A stretch of DNA of 64,000 bases from Clostridiales bacterium. GTDB lineage: Bacteria; Bacillota; Clostridia; Oscillospirales; Oscillospiraceae. The translations under genes and the position numbers were made by a program. The DNA lies in contig JALEMS010000021.1 in NCBI GenBank assembly GCA_022768185.1, forward strand, positions 1 to 64,000, given 5' to 3'. The notes beneath the pieces were generated by a model. It worked only from the letters and a program-made list of their open reading frames with translations, was not told the DNA's origin and did not search any database. Each line of letters starts with the position of its first letter. Position 1 is the stretch's first letter. Shown here in pieces: positions 1,241 to 9,353 of this stretch.

Positions 1241-1269
1241 ATTATAATATGTTGTGCGGAAAATGTCAA
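1241..1269 (-). promoter_or_regulatory. Consensus sigma-A promoter for tRNA-Ser
   Basis: On the minus strand TTGACA (1269-1264), a 17-bp spacer and TATAAT (1246-1241) match the sigma-A consensus exactly. The -10 ends 14 bp before the tRNA. Confidence 0.9.
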
Positions 1270-1376
1270 TAGTGTTTTTTCGCGCTTTCTGCGATATAAT
1301 AATGCTAATATGCGTCAGTCTGCCTGCGGGACGGAATGCGGCGCGAACCTATCATGGCATCAAGGGGGGCCTGTCC

Positions 1377-3089
1377 ATGGCTGGAGAGAGAAAGCCGAAA
1401 TCGGCCAGACGAATCGTCATCAATCTGCTGATTACGCTGCTGGTTGGTCTGATTTATTTTTATTTTAAGCTGCCTGCGCTCAATCTGCAGAATCCGGGCT
1501 TTTACGGGATGGTATTCGTTCTGGCGTTTTTGTACTGTATCCTGTCGGTGCTGTCGCTGGGGCTGCTCAAGGAGGTCAGCGACGGCGCGGGCCTCTGGCG
1601 CAGCGTGCGCATCAACTGCACGGTGCCGGTCGTTATCTGCGCGGTGCTGATTGGCATTTTTGCCGTCGGCTGGCTCAGCGGCGTGCCGCTGCTGCGCGCA
1701 AAGGGGTATGCGCAACTGATAGACGTCACCGAAAGCAACTTCGCGGAAGATATTGACGAGATATCCTTTGACCAGATCCCAATGCTCGACAGCGATTCTG
1801 CTCAGGTTCTGGCAGACCGCAAGCTCGGCGAGCTGTCTGATCTGGTCAGCCAGTTTGAGGTGGACGACTCCACGGTGCAGATCAACTACCGCGGCCGTCC
1901 GGTGCGCGTGACCTATCTCAATTACGGCGACCTGTTCAAATGGTTCAACAACGTTTCCCACGGTCTGCCGGCCTATATCTGCCTCGACATGGTTTCGCAG
2001 GAGGTAACAGTGCGGCGTCTGGAGCAGGGGATGCGCTATTCGCCGTCGGAATACTTTTTCCGTGATGTTGAGCGACATCTGCGCTTTCAGTATCCGACCT
2101 ATCTGTTCGACGAGGTCAACTTCGAGATCGACGAGGACGGTACGCCATACTGGGTCGCCGGTGTGGCGACGCGCCGGATCGGCCTGTTTTCCGGAAACGA
2201 CATCCGCGGCGCGGTGCTGATGAATGCCATCAGCGGCGAATGCACCTATTACGATGTGGCAGACGTGCCCAGGTGGGTCGACCGCGTATATCCGGCAGAC
2301 CTCATTATTCAGCAGTATAACTATCACGGGGCGTACCATCTCGGCTTTTGGAACCACATCTTCGGTCAGCGGCAGGTGACTGTGACCACCGAAGGCTATA
2401 ACTATATTGCCCAGGATGATGATGTGTGGCTCTACACCGGTATTACCTCCGTTACCGGAGACGAGTCAAACATCGGCTTTATCCTCGTCAACCAGCGCAC
2501 CAAGCAGGCGCGTTATTATGCCATCGCCGGTGCGGAGGAATACTCTGCCATGAACTCTGCCAAGGGTGCCGTGCAGCAGTACAGTTATACAGCCACATTC
2601 CCGCTGCTGCTGAACATCTCCGGCCAGCCGACGTATTTTGTGGCCCTGAAGGACGCTTCACAGCTGGTGAAAATGTATGCTATGGTCAACGTCCAGCAGT
2701 ATCAGCTGGTGGCGACCGGACCTTCTGTTTCCGAGTGCAGAAAAAATTATGTAAACCTGCTTACCAGCAATGACATCGACCTGGCCGCTGCGGAGCAAAC
2801 CGGCGAGCCGGTAACGGGTACGGTTGGCGAGTTGCGCAGCGCAGTGCTCGACGGAACCACGCGCGTTTATATCCGGCTGGAGGGACAAACGTACTGGTAT
2901 GTTGTGTCTGCGGCCGATTCGGAGACTGCCGTGCTGCTGAACGCGGGCGACCGGGTGTCGATCTGCTCGGCTGAAGACGACGGAGAGCTGCGCACGGCCT
3001 GGGAGGTCACACGCACAGGGCGTGCACCCGATTTGGCTGCCGGGGCCGATGTGCCGTCCGGCACGGATGCGGAGCAGAGCATGGCATAA
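1377..3089 (+). CDS. Large membrane-anchored protein of unknown function
   Basis: The 570-residue product starts at the ATG preceded by AGGGGGG. Three hydrophobic segments fill the N-terminus (about residues 12-31, 40-62 and 82-101); the other 460 residues are soluble and, by the loop charges, probably outside the cell. The soluble part is rich in aromatic residues and beta-strand-like stretches (YPTYLFDEVNF, GTPYWVAGVATRR, QPTYFVALKDAS) with no catalytic motif I recognise. TATAAT at 1295-1300 could be its -10, without a good -35. It stands alone between tRNA-Ser and a strong terminator. I recognise no family; a cell-envelope role is inference only. Confidence 0.85.
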   Translation: MAGERKPKSARRIVINLLITLLVGLIYFYFKLPALNLQNPGFYGMVFVLAFLYCILSVLSLGLLKEVSDGAGLWRSVRINCTVPVVICAVLIGIFAVGWLSGVPLLRAKGYAQLIDVTESNFAEDIDEISFDQIPMLDSDSAQVLADRKLGELSDLVSQFEVDDSTVQINYRGRPVRVTYLNYGDLFKWFNNVSHGLPAYICLDMVSQEVTVRRLEQGMRYSPSEYFFRDVERHLRFQYPTYLFDEVNFEIDEDGTPYWVAGVATRRIGLFSGNDIRGAVLMNAISGECTYYDVADVPRWVDRVYPADLIIQQYNYHGAYHLGFWNHIFGQRQVTVTTEGYNYIAQDDDVWLYTGITSVTGDESNIGFILVNQRTKQARYYAIAGAEEYSAMNSAKGAVQQYSYTATFPLLLNISGQPTYFVALKDASQLVKMYAMVNVQQYQLVATGPSVSECRKNYVNLLTSNDIDLAAAEQTGEPVTGTVGELRSAVLDGTTRVYIRLEGQTYWYVVSAADSETAVLLNAGDRVSICSAEDDGELRTAWEVTRTGRAPDLAAGADVPSGTDAEQSMA

Positions 3090-3457: not shown

Positions 3458-6400
3458 TCATTTTTCATACCATTTCTTTTCCCACCACTGCTTGACGCTC
3501 CGGCAGGCGTTCTCGCAGTGATACCGGATACCCCGGCTCAGAACCCGGTAGATGCCCCACATCCCGGACTCCACATCCCAGCGCAGGGAGCCGGAGCGGT
3601 AGAGATAGTCGCCGGGGCATTGGGTCTGCTCCGGCTCGATATTGAACACATTGCCCACACTGACAGCTCCCTGTACGGGGACGATCCGGGTGAAGGGATC
3701 ATCGGACTGGGTCTGCCAGCGGTGGCCGTGGAGGACGAAGCTGATATTTCTGGGCTTATCCGCCGGCATCAGCAGGCGGATGATGACTCGCTCCCTGGTA
3801 TAGGACCGGAACAACGGCGTGGCTGGGTCGCCGTGGACCCTGGAGTCGAAGACCTTGTGGATGAGGGGAATGCGCTGGAGCCGGTTGAAGAACCACTCCG
3901 AGCGGTAGTTGTATCCCTTTTCGCCGGTGTCTTCATGGTCGGGAGCTTCATGACCGCCTGCCTCGCCGTCCTCGAGGCCCTGCTCCGTTGTTTTGATGAG
4001 GTTGCCCTCTTTGTCCAGCAGGCGGATGCCATTGTGGGCAAACAGGACGAATTCCCGGAAGGTCTCCACCCCCGGTGCGGCGATAACAGCTTCTTCCTTG
4101 TAGTTTTCTTCCAGAGAGCGGATATTGCTGTAGTGCTTTGCCTCCGGCGGTTCCACGATTATGGCGCCGAACAGCCCGTGGTGCCGGTGGTTCCGCAGGT
4201 CGCCGAAGGAGGTCAGCAGGCAGGTGCCGTATTCCCGGTCTGCGTGCCACAGGTATTTGACGCATTCGCCCGGCCCGGCGGTCTGCTCCACCGGGTTCCG
4301 GCCCACATTGACGCCGGGGGACGCCACCGGGTCATACTTCAAAAACTGTGGGTTCAGGGACACCCGGTTGCCGGGAATAAAGGGCGTGTTCAGCGGCACG
4401 GAGGGATATTCATTCCACCGGATCGGAACATCGGGGTCAAACAGGTTGTGGAGGGTGATCTCCACCCAATCCCCGGCGTTGACTCGGAGGATGAGGGGAA
4501 TGGGTTTCCGCCGTCCGCACTGTACCTCTTTTGCCTGCTCCAGGGGGACGAACAGCAAGCCTTCCGGGTCGTGGTCGCCATAACGATTGTAGCACAAATC
4601 CTTCTGGATGGCGGCGATCTCGAATTTTCGCACCACCGCGCCGGGAGGCGGCGTCCGGGGAGCGGCGATGGGCCGGATGCCGCATAGGGGCTTTAAGTCC
4701 GGCCTTGGTGCGCCGTGGGCCCGGATAATGCCCCATAACCCCAGCCACAGGTCGTCGATGCCGCCGGAGTAGTAGAGATAATCTCCCGCTTCGTAGGGTT
4801 CGTCGATGCGGATATTGAAGGCTTCCGAAATACCGATGGTCTGGGCCTGCACCAAAGGGGACACCGGGTCTGTGATTTCCTTCCGCCATGGCAGGCCGGT
4901 GATGTTGAAGACATGCTGTTCCTCGTGAGCGCCGTCCAGCAGGCGGATGACCATGGGCTCGCCGGGATAGGTCTCCAGGATGGGTGTAGCCGGGTCGCCG
5001 TAACAGAAGGAGCTGAAGATATGCGCCGGGTCGTTCCTGCGCTTTAACCGCTCTACCATGGGTTCACAGCGGTAGTTGATGCCCATGACGCCGGGGTCGT
5101 CATCGGAGCCGGGATGCTCCGGCGGGTTCAGGGGCTTCCCCTCGCCATCAAACAGCAGGGCGAAGTCGTGGAGCGCCAGAACAAACTCCCGGTGCATTTT
5201 CCCGTCGGCGGTGCGGATGACAGCCTCTGTTCCGCGCTTCAGCGGCTCCCATGTTTTGGGATCCAGAAATTCTGCTCCGGCGGGCTCCACGATGAGGGCA
5301 CCGAACAGGCCGTGCTGCTGGTGGACGTTGGCGTACAGGTGGTCATGGAAGAAGACGGTGTTCAGTTCCTCGTTGGAAAAAAACCGCTCGATGAGCGTCT
5401 CATACCGCCGGGCTCCGGCGATGTTGTTCCAGCCGTTGGCCGCGCCGTCGGACACGATGGTGTCGAATTTCACCAGATGGATGTGGTAGCCCACAATATC
5501 AGTGATGGTCTCCAGCAGAAAAGCGCTGGCCTCAATACGATCCGGCAGGAAGTTGGTGAGCCGCACCTCAATGCAGTCCCCGGCGTTGGCCCGGATGACC
5601 AGCGGTTCCGGGCGGATGTCGCCGCATTCCACTTTTGCAAGGTAATCGTCCAGTGTCCCCTCTTTTTCGATGTCCTCCTTGAGAACGAAGAAGCGGCCCT
5701 GGGGGTCGTGCCAGCCGTAGTCGTTGTAGACAACGTTTGCCTGCACTGCCGCGATATCAAAACGCTTTACGTTCTCCGCCGCGCCGCAGGGGCAGGTGTC
5801 CGTGTACAGGGCGCCAGGTACGGCGTTTTCCACGAAGTTGGCTTTCTCCAGGACTGTGGGGGTTCTGGTGGGCGCTCCCTCCGGCGTCAGGACGCCCAGA
5901 GGCGGCTGAAGGGGCTCCCGGCCGAAGGTCCCCGCCACGAAGTTGGGATAGCCGGGATGCAGGTCATCTCTGGGCGGCAGAGGACGGTCCCGCAGTGGGA
6001 TCAGGGCCTCAATGGGCGTGCCGTCCGGATAGGAGCCGCTGCCATCCTGCAGTCGGTCGAACACCCGCCACAGAGTCCACATTCCCTCGTGGAAGTGGGG
6101 ATAGAGATGGCAGTGGAAGATGGCGTCGCCGATCATCCCGTTGAGACTGCCCGCACCGTAGAGGATATCCAACGTGTAGCATTCCTGGGGGCTGATGGAG
6201 ATGGAGTCGATGATGGTGGACTTGGGGTCCTCCGGCTCCAACCGCCACTGGTGGTTGTGGAGGTGGAACACATGGGTCTCTTTGACACCGCCGTGGATCA
6301 GACGGATTTTGGATGGGCCTCCCACATAGGCCCGGAGGATGGGAGGCGCCGGGTCCCCATAGGACCAGGAGCTCATGGAGATGTCCTCCGCCGTGTCGGC

Positions 6401-7146
6401 GGGGTCGGCGTGATGGCCCTCCAGAGGCGGCCGGTTCCGCATGGGCTCGGAGCGGTAGCTGATGGCGGTGGTGCCGTTGGGGAGACCCGTGTGGGGGTCC
6501 ACCGGCGGTTGGTTGTCTTTTGTCAGAATTTCCAGTTCGTCGTGGAAGAATACGGCGTATTCCCGGAAGGCGGGCTTCGTCGGGTGGTAAATGTCGGCGA
6601 ACAGGCCGCTGTCAATGGGCTCGCCTGTCACCGGGTCGTACCAGGAGGGCCCTGCCGCCTCCACGATAATGGCCCCGAACAGGCCGTGGACGTTGGTGCC
6701 GTCCTCGCCGCTGCGGGTATCCGCCATATCGGAGAACAGGAAAACGCCTTCCTGATCCGCCTGCCAGGTGTAGCAGATGCGATGGCTGGTGGTGGAGTCG
6801 GGGTTGAAGCCCACGTCGGTACCGTCGGAGGTCAGCACGTTGTAGGAAAGGCCCGCACGTGGATGGACGCCCGGCGGTCCAGTTTGTTGTCGAAATTGAT
6901 CTGAACGGTGGCGCCCACATTAGCCCGGATGACCAAAGGCTGCACATCTTCATAGGGCTGGGGGACAGGAAGCTCAAACCGTTTCCTTGCCTCCCGCTGG
7001 ATGCGCTCCGAATCCTGCTTCAGCACATACAGCAACCCGTTGGGGTCATGGTCTCCAAATTTGTTGTAGATGATGGGAAGGGAAATCGCTTCTATATCAT
7101 AGACCCGGTGCTGTCCGGGGCTGGGATAAGCGGATAATTCCAGCAT
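3458..7146 (-). pseudogene. Giant multicopper oxidase (MnxG-like size), broken by a one-base frameshift
   Basis: The start at 7146 (MLELSAYPSP) has SD GAGGAG. Translation runs to about 6853, where RC GGGCC needs one more G to continue as GLSYNVLTSDGT; the second frame then runs to 3458. Restored length is about 1,229 residues. It is three tandem units of about 400 residues, each opening with a [YF][DE]I..I/V..YN.[YF]G.HDP.G motif and containing HGLFGA.IVE, so probably six cupredoxin domains. Copper motifs: HLHNH and HCHLYPHFHEGM at the end of unit 1 (the latter fits HCHxxxHxxxxM), and HIH plus FFHDH in the first half of unit 2; unit 3 lacks these. Multicopper oxidases oxidise metals or phenols with O2; the length and six-domain plan recall manganese-oxidising MnxG. 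No signal peptide is seen. It is the only long minus-strand gene here. A sequencing slip in the G run could explain the break. Confidence 0.8.
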
Positions 7147-7331
7147 TGGATCATTCTCCTCGCAATTGATTGCACAGTGTCCGGCAGAAGCCGGGAACTG
7201 GCAACCTATCTTATGTACTTTCGAATAAACTGGTGTTTTCCACACGATAGACCAGAATCTGTTCGGAGACGGTACCCGTTCGGAAATTTCCGGCGATATT
7301 GCGGTCGTTATGTGCGCTACACTGCGAATGT

Positions 7332-7480: not shown

Positions 7481-7613
7481 ATTGGTCGGAGTATCATGAA
7501 AGGATCTGAGCGTTCCGGTCACAACTCGCCAAATCAAAGCCCAACGAAGTGGGTTCGATATGGAAAGGAGGAGCAGCGGCGTGAGCGCGGGATGACTTTT
7601 TGATGCAACGCAT

Positions 7614-7650
7614 AAAAAAGTCGTCGCAAGCGATACAAGCTTGCGACGAC
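7614..7650 (-). terminator. Terminator of tRNA-Pro
   Basis: GTCGTCGCAAG pairs perfectly with CTTGCGACGAC and is followed by six T on the minus strand, one base beyond the tRNA CCA end. Confidence 0.9.
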
Positions 7651-7651
7651 G

Positions 7652-7727
7652 TGGTCGGAGTGGGGAGACTTGAACTCCCGGCCTCATGGTCCCGAACCAT
7701 GCGCGCTACCTACTGCGCTACACCCCG
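7652..7727 (-). tRNA. tRNA-Pro (CGG)
   Basis: The 76-nt minus-strand sequence has acceptor CGGGGTG/CACTCCG (one G-U pair), discriminator A and encoded CCA. Anticodon stem CATGG/CCATG holds loop TTCGGGA, giving anticodon CGG, which reads CCG. D-arm GCGC...GCGC and T-arm GGGAG-TTCAAGT-CTCCC are standard. Confidence 0.95.
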
Positions 7728-7741
7728 AAATCAGCTTGTTT

Positions 7742-7770
7742 ATTATATTGTTTTATTCCCGGATTGTCAA
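7742..7770 (-). promoter_or_regulatory. Consensus sigma-A promoter for tRNA-Pro
   Basis: On the minus strand TTGACA (7770-7765), 17 bp, then TATAAT (7747-7742). The AAACAAGCT just after the -10 is also found after the tRNA-Ser promoter. Confidence 0.9.
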
Positions 7771-7817
7771 GTGGAAATTCCGCATTCCGGGACATTTTCT
7801 GCGGAAATTTGCCCGGG

Positions 7818-7846
7818 GCATATCACGGGACACGCTCTCATACAAT
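7818..7846 (+). promoter_or_regulatory. Sigma-E (mother-cell) promoter of spoIVFA-spoIVFB
   Basis: GCATATC at 7818-7824, a 14-bp spacer and CATACAAT at 7839-7846 match the sigma-E consensus (-35 kmATATt, -10 CATACAmT) in all but one position. The predicted transcript start near 7853 leaves a leader of only about 14 nt that still contains the GGAG SD of the ATG at 7867. Confidence 0.75.
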
Positions 7847-7866
7847 CAAGCATGGAGCGTGATGGT

Positions 7867-8763
7867 ATGAAACGGGCGAAAATTTACATTGCGGCGGCGA
7901 TCTTTCTGTTGATTACGGTGATGAAGCTGCTCTCGCCGTCGTTGGCCAGCGGTGTGCGGGAACGGCTGCTGCCGGCGCTGCAATACAGCGTCGATTACCG
8001 TGAGGTCATGATAGAGCTGGGCCGCCAGCTCGGCGACAGCGACGGCATCCGGCAGGTCTTCTCCTGGATGGGGGACACCCGGGAAACGGAGCCGGCGGAG
8101 GGCGCGCAGCCGCAGCGGTCATCGTGGGAGACGCGGTATACTCCCGCGACGATCCGACAGCTGTATGGTACGGCAGGCGAAGGTCTGTCGGCGGTATACG
8201 GTGTGGCTGCGGAGCCGGCGGAGGGCGCACAGGCGCAGGCAGAGCCGATACCTGAGCCGCAGTCGGAGCCGGAGCCGGTTCCGACTGTTGTGGCGGCATT
8301 TCTGCAGCAGCAGGCGGCCTTTTCCGACTACGCCGTGCCGGCCAATGTCAGCTATGACATGCCGCAGCTGCCGTTTTCGTATACGACGCCGGTGACCGGC
8401 ATGACCAGCTCCGGCTTCGGCTATCGGATGCATCCGCTGGCCAACGAGGTGAAGTTTCATTACGGGACGGATTTTGCGGCCTACACGGGCACACAGATCC
8501 ATGCCTTTGCCGACGGAACGGTGCTTGCCTGCGGTGAGAGCGACAGCTACGGCAATTATATCATGCTCGACCACGGGAATGGTTATCAGAGCCTGTATGG
8601 CCACTGCAGTGAGGTGTGGGTCTCATGGGGAGAGACGGTCTCCTGCGGGCAGGTCATCGGCGCGGTTGGTGCGACCGGACAGGTTACCGGGCCGCACCTG
8701 CACTTTGAGTTGATGCACAACGATACGTATCTGAATCCTGAATTCTATCTGGAGGCGGCATGA
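7867..8763 (+). CDS. spoIVFA: M23-domain membrane protein, SpoIVFA-like
   Basis: The 298-residue protein has an N-terminal membrane segment (about residues 6-20), a variable Glu/Pro/Ala-rich linker and a C-terminal LytM/M23 domain. The zinc motifs HYGTD (HxxxD) and GPHLHFE (HxH) and the accessory His of LYGHC are present, so the fold could be catalytic. In Bacillus, SpoIVFA holds the intramembrane protease SpoIVFB inactive in the outer forespore membrane until the SpoIVB signal. The next gene overlaps by 4 bp and encodes the SpoIVFB-type protease, and the sigma-E promoter fits. ATG 7867 was chosen over 7852 because only it leaves room for an SD on the predicted transcript. Confidence 0.8.
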   Translation: MKRAKIYIAAAIFLLITVMKLLSPSLASGVRERLLPALQYSVDYREVMIELGRQLGDSDGIRQVFSWMGDTRETEPAEGAQPQRSSWETRYTPATIRQLYGTAGEGLSAVYGVAAEPAEGAQAQAEPIPEPQSEPEPVPTVVAAFLQQQAAFSDYAVPANVSYDMPQLPFSYTTPVTGMTSSGFGYRMHPLANEVKFHYGTDFAAYTGTQIHAFADGTVLACGESDSYGNYIMLDHGNGYQSLYGHCSEVWVSWGETVSCGQVIGAVGATGQVTGPHLHFELMHNDTYLNPEFYLEAA

Positions 8764-9353
8764 ACAGGCGGAGTGTGACGGTCAGCGTGGGCGCGCTGCT
8801 GCTGATGGCGCTGGTCTACTTTTTTGATGAAAACGGCATCTGCGCAGCGCTGCTGCTGGCGGCGGCCGTCCATGAAGCGGGGCATGTGCTGGCGCTGCGG
8901 ATGCTGGGGGCGCAGGTCACAGGGCTGCGGATCGAGCTGTCGGGGCTGTGTCTGGATTACCGGGGACGGCCCGGCCGCGCGGGCGAGGTGTTTGCCGCAG
9001 CAATGGGACCGGCGTTCGGGGCGGTGCTGGCAGTGGTGTGCGCGCTGGCCGGGCGGCGGTGGGAGAGTGAACTGCTGCTGTGCACGGCAGGGATCAGCTT
9101 GGTGCTGACGCTGTTCAATCTGCTGCCTGCCATGCCGCTTGACGGCGGGCGCATTCTTTCGGCGCTGCTGCCGCGCCGGTACGCAGCGCAGGTGCTGCGC
9201 TTTTCCGGGGTGATGTGCGCCTCGGCGCTCGTATGCGCGGGGCTGTGGTTTGCCTGGGCCGGGTGCGGTGCGGCGCTGACGCTGGCCGGACTTTATCTGA
9301 TGGGCTATTGTGTTTTGTACCAGCCTGTTGTAAAATATAAAAATCGGCCGTAG
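8760..9353 (+). CDS. spoIVFB: M50 intramembrane metalloprotease, SpoIVFB-like
   Basis: This 197-residue polytopic protein has the site-2-protease motifs HEAGH (about residue 38, HExxH) and NLLPAMPLDGG (second zinc motif) between hydrophobic helices. SpoIVFB cleaves pro-sigma-K within the membrane to release active sigma-K late in sporulation. It lacks the C-terminal CBS domain of the Bacillus enzyme; the sequence ends in a membrane helix and VVKYKNRP. It overlaps the SpoIVFA-like gene as ATGA, so the pair is translationally coupled. A second, unrelated M50 protease lies at 24411. Confidence 0.85.
   Translation: MNRRSVTVSVGALLLMALVYFFDENGICAALLLAAAVHEAGHVLALRMLGAQVTGLRIELSGLCLDYRGRPGRAGEVFAAAMGPAFGAVLAVVCALAGRRWESELLLCTAGISLVLTLFNLLPAMPLDGGRILSALLPRRYAAQVLRFSGVMCASALVCAGLWFAWAGCGAALTLAGLYLMGYCVLYQPVVKYKNRP

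Follow-up and report, generated by a model that had tools for sequence, protein, structure and literature searches.

The window analysed here, the first 64,000 nucleotides of contig JALEMS010000021.1 from a Clostridiales bacterium of the Oscillospiraceae (GCA_022768185.1), carries at positions 3458-7146 of the reverse strand the gene of a multicopper oxidase (MCO) with six cupredoxin domains, split over two reading frames by a single frameshift near 6840. The protein resembles MnxG, the spore manganese oxidase of Bacillus, and belongs to a clostridial clade in which the oxidase is associated with a gene of the DUF2935 family (Pfam PF11155). We consider it likely that the clostridial oxidase is a metal oxidase of the spore surface, made late in the mother cell and acting when the spores of anaerobes meet O2, and that the copy in the window was recently frameshifted or mis-sequenced. 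As a protein, it is a broken representative of a family already known; what look new are the surroundings in the clostridial clade, where the partner differs and the operon is of sigma-K type.

Searches with the window oxidase matched MnxG of Bacillus sp. PL-12 (PDB 9bxa_A) over almost the full frame (E=0, 1,022.7 bits), and an intact relative scored 1,083 bits against 9bxa. Both Pfam profiles, Cu-oxidase_3 and Cu-oxidase_2, scored above their cut-offs for the window oxidase; a Cu-oxidase_3 profile search of the whole genome gave no match although the gene is present, which is a limit of the scan and not an absence. By predicted fold, 9bxa_A was again the top match (Z 33.3 over 994 residues, 43% identity, TMq 0.85), compared with a Z of 22.1 for ceruloplasmin. 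The likeness to MnxG proposed in the initial annotation is therefore borne out by sequence and predicted fold, and the structure prediction and MnxG search set beforehand gave multicopper oxidases as the closest relatives. Judged by sequence, chance resemblance is excluded, and it is virtually certain that the protein has an MnxG-type fold and site. The AlphaFold model was built from the main frame of 1,126 aa and has a mean pLDDT of 72; the copper region is its poorest part, with residues 227-252 and 457-473 under or near 50, because the modelled fragment lacks most of domain 1.

The set of type-1 and trinuclear copper ligands is complete in the window oxidase (residues are numbered as in the 1,126-aa frame). 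In domain 2, motif C, HVFHLHNH (6251..6274, reverse strand), provides the type-1 ligand His189 and the trinuclear ligands His192 and His194, and motif D, HCHLYPHFHEGM (6080..6115, reverse strand), provides the type-1 ligands Cys243, His248 and Met253 and the trinuclear ligands His242 and His244, with the spacings H189-xx-H192-x-H194 and H242-C243-H244-LYP-H248-xxxx-M253. Domain 3 holds motif A, HIH (5477..5485, reverse strand; His452 and His454), and motif B, HDH (5339..5347, reverse strand; His498 and His500). His248 is the counterpart of MnxG position 340, which is Ala in the H340A structure 9bxa. Across 47 aligned proteins the ligand columns were invariant except for one Asn at H242, and the non-ligand H196 was Tyr in one protein. 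At locus L101, around 6700, an otherwise intact oxidase reads NCHLYP, with Asn replacing the initial His of HCH, which is a trinuclear ligand.

The initial annotation had claimed that the ligand motifs are divided, C and D closing unit 1 (domain 2) and A and B opening unit 2 (domain 3), and this division is present. The trinuclear site that it predicted where units 1 and 2 meet would match the layout reported for all six-domain bacterial MCOs analysed by Vasin et al. 2013 (PMC3600357), with trinuclear ligands in domains 2 and 3 and the mononuclear site in domain 2. The order of C and D before A and B is thus a known family feature and not peculiar to the window protein; neither this split nor the presence of such oxidases in Clostridia is new, because that paper describes the layout and lists members from C. 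perfringens and from C. methylpentosum (1,231 aa). The claim that unit 3 has lost the motifs held in part: unit 3 lacks a complete copper site, yet certain histidines are kept throughout the family. A residual cluster HRHH (residues 884-887; 4178..4189, reverse strand) stands at the place of motif B, with H884 invariant among 42 aligned relatives, and a residual HGH (residues 1037-1039; 3722..3730, reverse strand) at the place of motif C, with H1037 invariant and H1039 at 90% or more. These histidines might hold another metal; residual ligands are remarked on in PMC3600357, and the single conserved His residues of unit 3 are in line with that remark.

Among known systems, the closest is MnxG of the MnxE3F3G spore manganese oxidase of Bacillus sp. 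PL-12 and SG-1, with which the window oxidase shares its size, six cupredoxin domains, the order C-D before A-B, the location of the copper sites (domains 2/3), the lack of an obvious N-terminal signal and a link to spores; the two proteins are about 43% identical throughout. It differs in that the clostridial clade has no MnxE/MnxF at its loci, has DUF2935 as partner and lives in strict anaerobes, and in the frameshift of the window copy. Ceruloplasmin and hephaestin likewise consist of three two-domain units with six cupredoxin domains and one trinuclear centre, but in ceruloplasmin the trinuclear ligands lie in domains 1 and 6, whereas in the window oxidase the ligands lie in domains 2/3 and there is one type-1 site. 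By analogy, the oxidase may be compared with the CotA laccase of the Bacillus spore coat, also a spore-surface multicopper oxidase. CotA, of about 510 aa, has three domains, the first carrying A/B and the third C/D; the intact relatives of the window oxidase have about 1,225 aa and C/D before A/B.

A scan of GTDB species genomes confirmed at least 530 relatives of the oxidase, and the loci of the best 80 (L034-L113) were analysed. These 80 come nearly all from Lachnospiraceae, Oscillospiraceae and other Clostridia, mostly of the gut, and a C. methylpentosum member already stood in the 2013 table; the view of the initial annotation that an MnxG-like oxidase is unexpected in an anaerobic clostridium is not upheld. 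Among gut Lachnospiraceae and Oscillospiraceae, intact versions are common. Carriage is patchy: within its genus the oxidase was found in this genome only, and carriers numbered 2/300 in the family, 2/391 in the class, 20/398 in the phylum (several of the phylum matches being weak or partial) and 17/299 in a sample of Lachnospiraceae. In the oxidase tree, clades follow host families. The window oxidase falls among Oscillospiraceae homologues, grouping with L034, L035, L036 and L101 and then with C. methylpentosum; L034 is its nearest relative, at 88% identity and as its sister with 100 SH-aLRT. The C. methylpentosum protein CLOSTMETH03020 (1,231 aa), listed as a six-domain MCO in PMC3600357, is intact, belongs to the same clade and is 76% identical to the window protein; it is very probably that of locus L042, which has the same strain and length. 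Two clostridial-type oxidases occur in records named for other phyla, L088 (Methanosarcina sp. Ant1) and L085 (a Thermoflexaceae metagenome-assembled genome). The L085 oxidase falls inside the Lachnospiraceae clade, and both records are likely to be mis-binned contigs or misnamed assemblies.

A DUF2935 gene was present at the oxidase locus in 56 of the 80 loci: 49 lie upstream on the same strand, three are divergent, two lie downstream and two are fragmentary. Where adjacency was lacking, DUF2935 was found elsewhere in 15 of 17 tested genomes, the match in G1120 being weak. Among Lachnospiraceae the DUF2935 gene was present in 15/17 genomes that carry the oxidase; of the genomes lacking the oxidase, 11/48 spore formers and 0/15 without spoIVA had it (Fisher p=3e-6, kinship ignored). 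A functional link between the oxidase and DUF2935 is suggested because the association is kept although the arrangement changes. DUF2935 is a family of helical metalloproteins with conserved His/Glu, its invariant residues including H164, E168, E203, H204, H286 and E290, and a solved relative is deposited as PDB 3d19, 'Conserved metalloprotein'. The gene occupies the place held by MnxE and MnxF in Bacillus-type loci. A search that covered the window and the loci located genes for MnxE/F, identified via the chains of 9bxa, at L008, L009, L010, L015, L136 and L137 but found none in the window or among the 80 clostridial loci. Literature searches on spore MCOs of Lachnospiraceae or clostridia and on DUF2935 turned up no study of this system.

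In C. methylpentosum the DUF2935 gene is divergent and adjacent to the oxidase gene, whereas in the window's genome it lies on another contig. There it ends at the edge of contig C50 (L114, G000:C50:24612-25424), with its N-terminus pointing outward. Because the oxidase lies on that outward side in L036 and L042, the separation is possibly due to a rearrangement or a mis-assembly at this point.

The promoter region suggests a link of this gene pair to sporulation. The pattern CATAnnnT(A/G) was found within 120 nt upstream of 40/44 DUF2935 genes, compared with 43/501 of the remaining genes at those loci (p about 1e-32, without correction for kinship). The profile upstream of DUF2935 reads ACC-N16-gCATATAnTATA and lies about 43 nt ahead of the start; the same form precedes most unlinked DUF2935 genes. 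In C. difficile, sigma-K promoters have a -35 element AC and a -10 element CATATAAT; sigma-E and sigma-K are alike at -10 and are told apart by -35 (ATA vs AC) (PMC3789822). The operon promoter is thus of the sigma-K form, since its -35 element is AC and not ATA. In the window a putative sigma-K-type promoter, AC-N17-CATAAGATA (7207..7234, reverse strand), lies 69 nt upstream of the ATG (measured to CATA); its position and spacing are as in L034, L036 and L101, L035 departing from the consensus, and such a match would be expected by chance in 0.25% of random stretches of 110 bp. The gene spoIVA was present in 17/17 oxidase carriers, compared with 197/299 of the Lachnospiraceae sample (p=6.5e-4, kinship ignored), and SpoIVA was found in 45/50 relatives and also in the window's own genome. 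We rate spore expression of the oxidase as probable.

The proposed mechanism begins late in sporulation, when the oxidase would be made in the mother cell, as Bacillus MnxG is, to be placed on the spore surface; no hydrophobic N-terminal signal was seen in the window protein. The type-1 copper of domain 2 would accept electrons singly from Mn(II) or Fe(II) as the reduced metal and pass them to the trinuclear cluster between domains 2 and 3, where O2 would be reduced to water. DUF2935 would stand in for MnxE/F as the supplier, holder or store of the metal. Such an enzyme, in a strict anaerobe, could work only once the spore is outside the gut, forming a coat that consumes O2 and oxidises metal. 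That the substrate is a metal, Mn or Fe, we rate at even odds. We tentatively propose, at slightly less than an even chance, that the spores of many strictly anaerobic gut bacteria carry a dedicated oxygen-using metal oxidase, a sigma-K-made pair of DUF2935 and an MnxG-like protein. Outside the host this pair would deposit oxidised metal on the spore or use up O2, a second, MnxE/F-independent form of spore Mn/Fe oxidation. Work on Bacillus MnxG-type oxidases has dealt with aerobic marine spores and with the enzyme in company with MnxE/F. If the clostridial enzyme works on spores with its different partner, it would bring O2-dependent copper chemistry to strict anaerobes at the sole stage that meets air, with a bearing on the survival of gut anaerobes during transmission between hosts; it would also give DUF2935 its first functional context and offer a system free of MnxE/F for studying the contribution of these subunits.

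Several observations weigh against a spore-surface metal oxidase. DUF2935 lies on another contig in the window's genome; SpoIVA was missing in 5/50 carriers, incomplete or mis-binned assemblies included; the statistics of association with sporulation ignore kinship; and the oxidase is dispensable, because it is patchy (2/300 in the family, 17/299 in Lachnospiraceae) and several copies are broken. Spores of Bacillus oxidise Mn and require mnxEFG to do so (PMC5622069), and with MnxE/F absent Mn may not be the substrate. The same spore-coat enzyme could then act on a non-mineralising substrate, as a laccase or CotA-like phenol oxidase or as a cuprous oxidase in copper detoxification, and its product would not be Mn oxide. 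The NCBIfam equivalog model for MnxG (NF041487, copper_ox_MnxG) also points this way, giving 299 bits for the window and 346-365 for intact relatives and so staying far from its curated cut-off of 3,100, but a model of 1,894 positions is poorly suited to testing a protein of 1,225 aa. The fold is much nearer to MnxG than to laccases and the DUF2935 partner is of a metalloprotein family, and we regard such a non-mineralising substrate as rather unlikely. Many bacterial MCOs serve copper tolerance, and the gene is as patchy as stress genes are, so that a vegetative enzyme of copper or oxygen defence, unrelated to spores and present in spore formers by happenstance, could be envisaged. This is improbable given the sigma-K-type promoter in 40/44, spoIVA in 17/17 carriers, DUF2935 in 0/15 SpoIVA-negative genomes tested and neighbour clusters in which no recurring copper genes were recognised.

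For the window copy itself, a pseudogene without current use, the relic of a spore gene being lost in the lineage, is a serious possibility, though one that we do not favour. It would agree with the frameshift, with the unlinked DUF2935, with the rarity of carriers in the family, with a broken copy at 90% identity in another family genome (G072) and with the truncated or broken look of at least 4-5 of the 17 Lachnospiraceae copies. The lesion, however, is a single one in 3.7 kb, the dN/dS between window and L034 is 0.105, the branch-specific codon changes (36 non-synonymous/121 synonymous in the window, 28/111 in the intact L034) give no sign of relaxation, and the promoter is kept. Because of this the frameshift must be either a very young mutation or an error in the draft sequence; the oxidase was under purifying selection until very recently, and was functional until then or is so still if the draft is wrong. 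That the gene came recently from an aerobic Bacillus, or that the contig is a contaminant, might be considered in view of the patchy distribution and because MnxG is known mainly from Bacillus, but is highly improbable: the tree rejects transfer from Bacillus, placing the window oxidase in the Oscillospiraceae clade with the Bacillus-type MnxE/F loci outside, its GC content is 61.1% vs 61.4% for the window, and ordinary chromosomal genes lie alongside. A DNA search of plasmids gave weak pieces and distant homologues only.

The oxidase gene starts with an ATG at 7146, preceded by a ribosome-binding site, GAGGAG, identified by sequence (7156..7161, reverse strand). The N-terminal piece (6832..7146, reverse strand; 104 aa) covers the start of domain 1, stops at the frameshift and aligns to residues 1-104 of the intact L034 protein; the main frame (3458..6838, reverse strand; 1,126 aa) covers the rest of domain 1 through to the end, and the two frames overlap near 6840 out of phase. 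Close relatives read the same region in a single frame of 1,221-1,231 aa, with which the length of about 1,229 aa given earlier for the restored protein agrees, and programmed frameshifting is not favoured because the relatives use one frame.

Next to the 3' end of the oxidase gene, positions 1254-3089 (forward strand) hold an open reading frame of 611 residues with no Pfam or NCBIfam match. Just upstream and divergent, at 7600-9353 (forward strand), an M23 peptidase gene is followed by an M50 peptidase gene; the pair recalls SpoIVFA/SpoIVFB, the sigma-K activators, and was not assigned. In L034 an M50-like gene is also near the oxidase, in a different arrangement. The broken G072 copy (L003, G072:C46), from another genus of the family, lies beside an M56-like (BlaR1-type) gene in a neighbourhood unlike that of the window.
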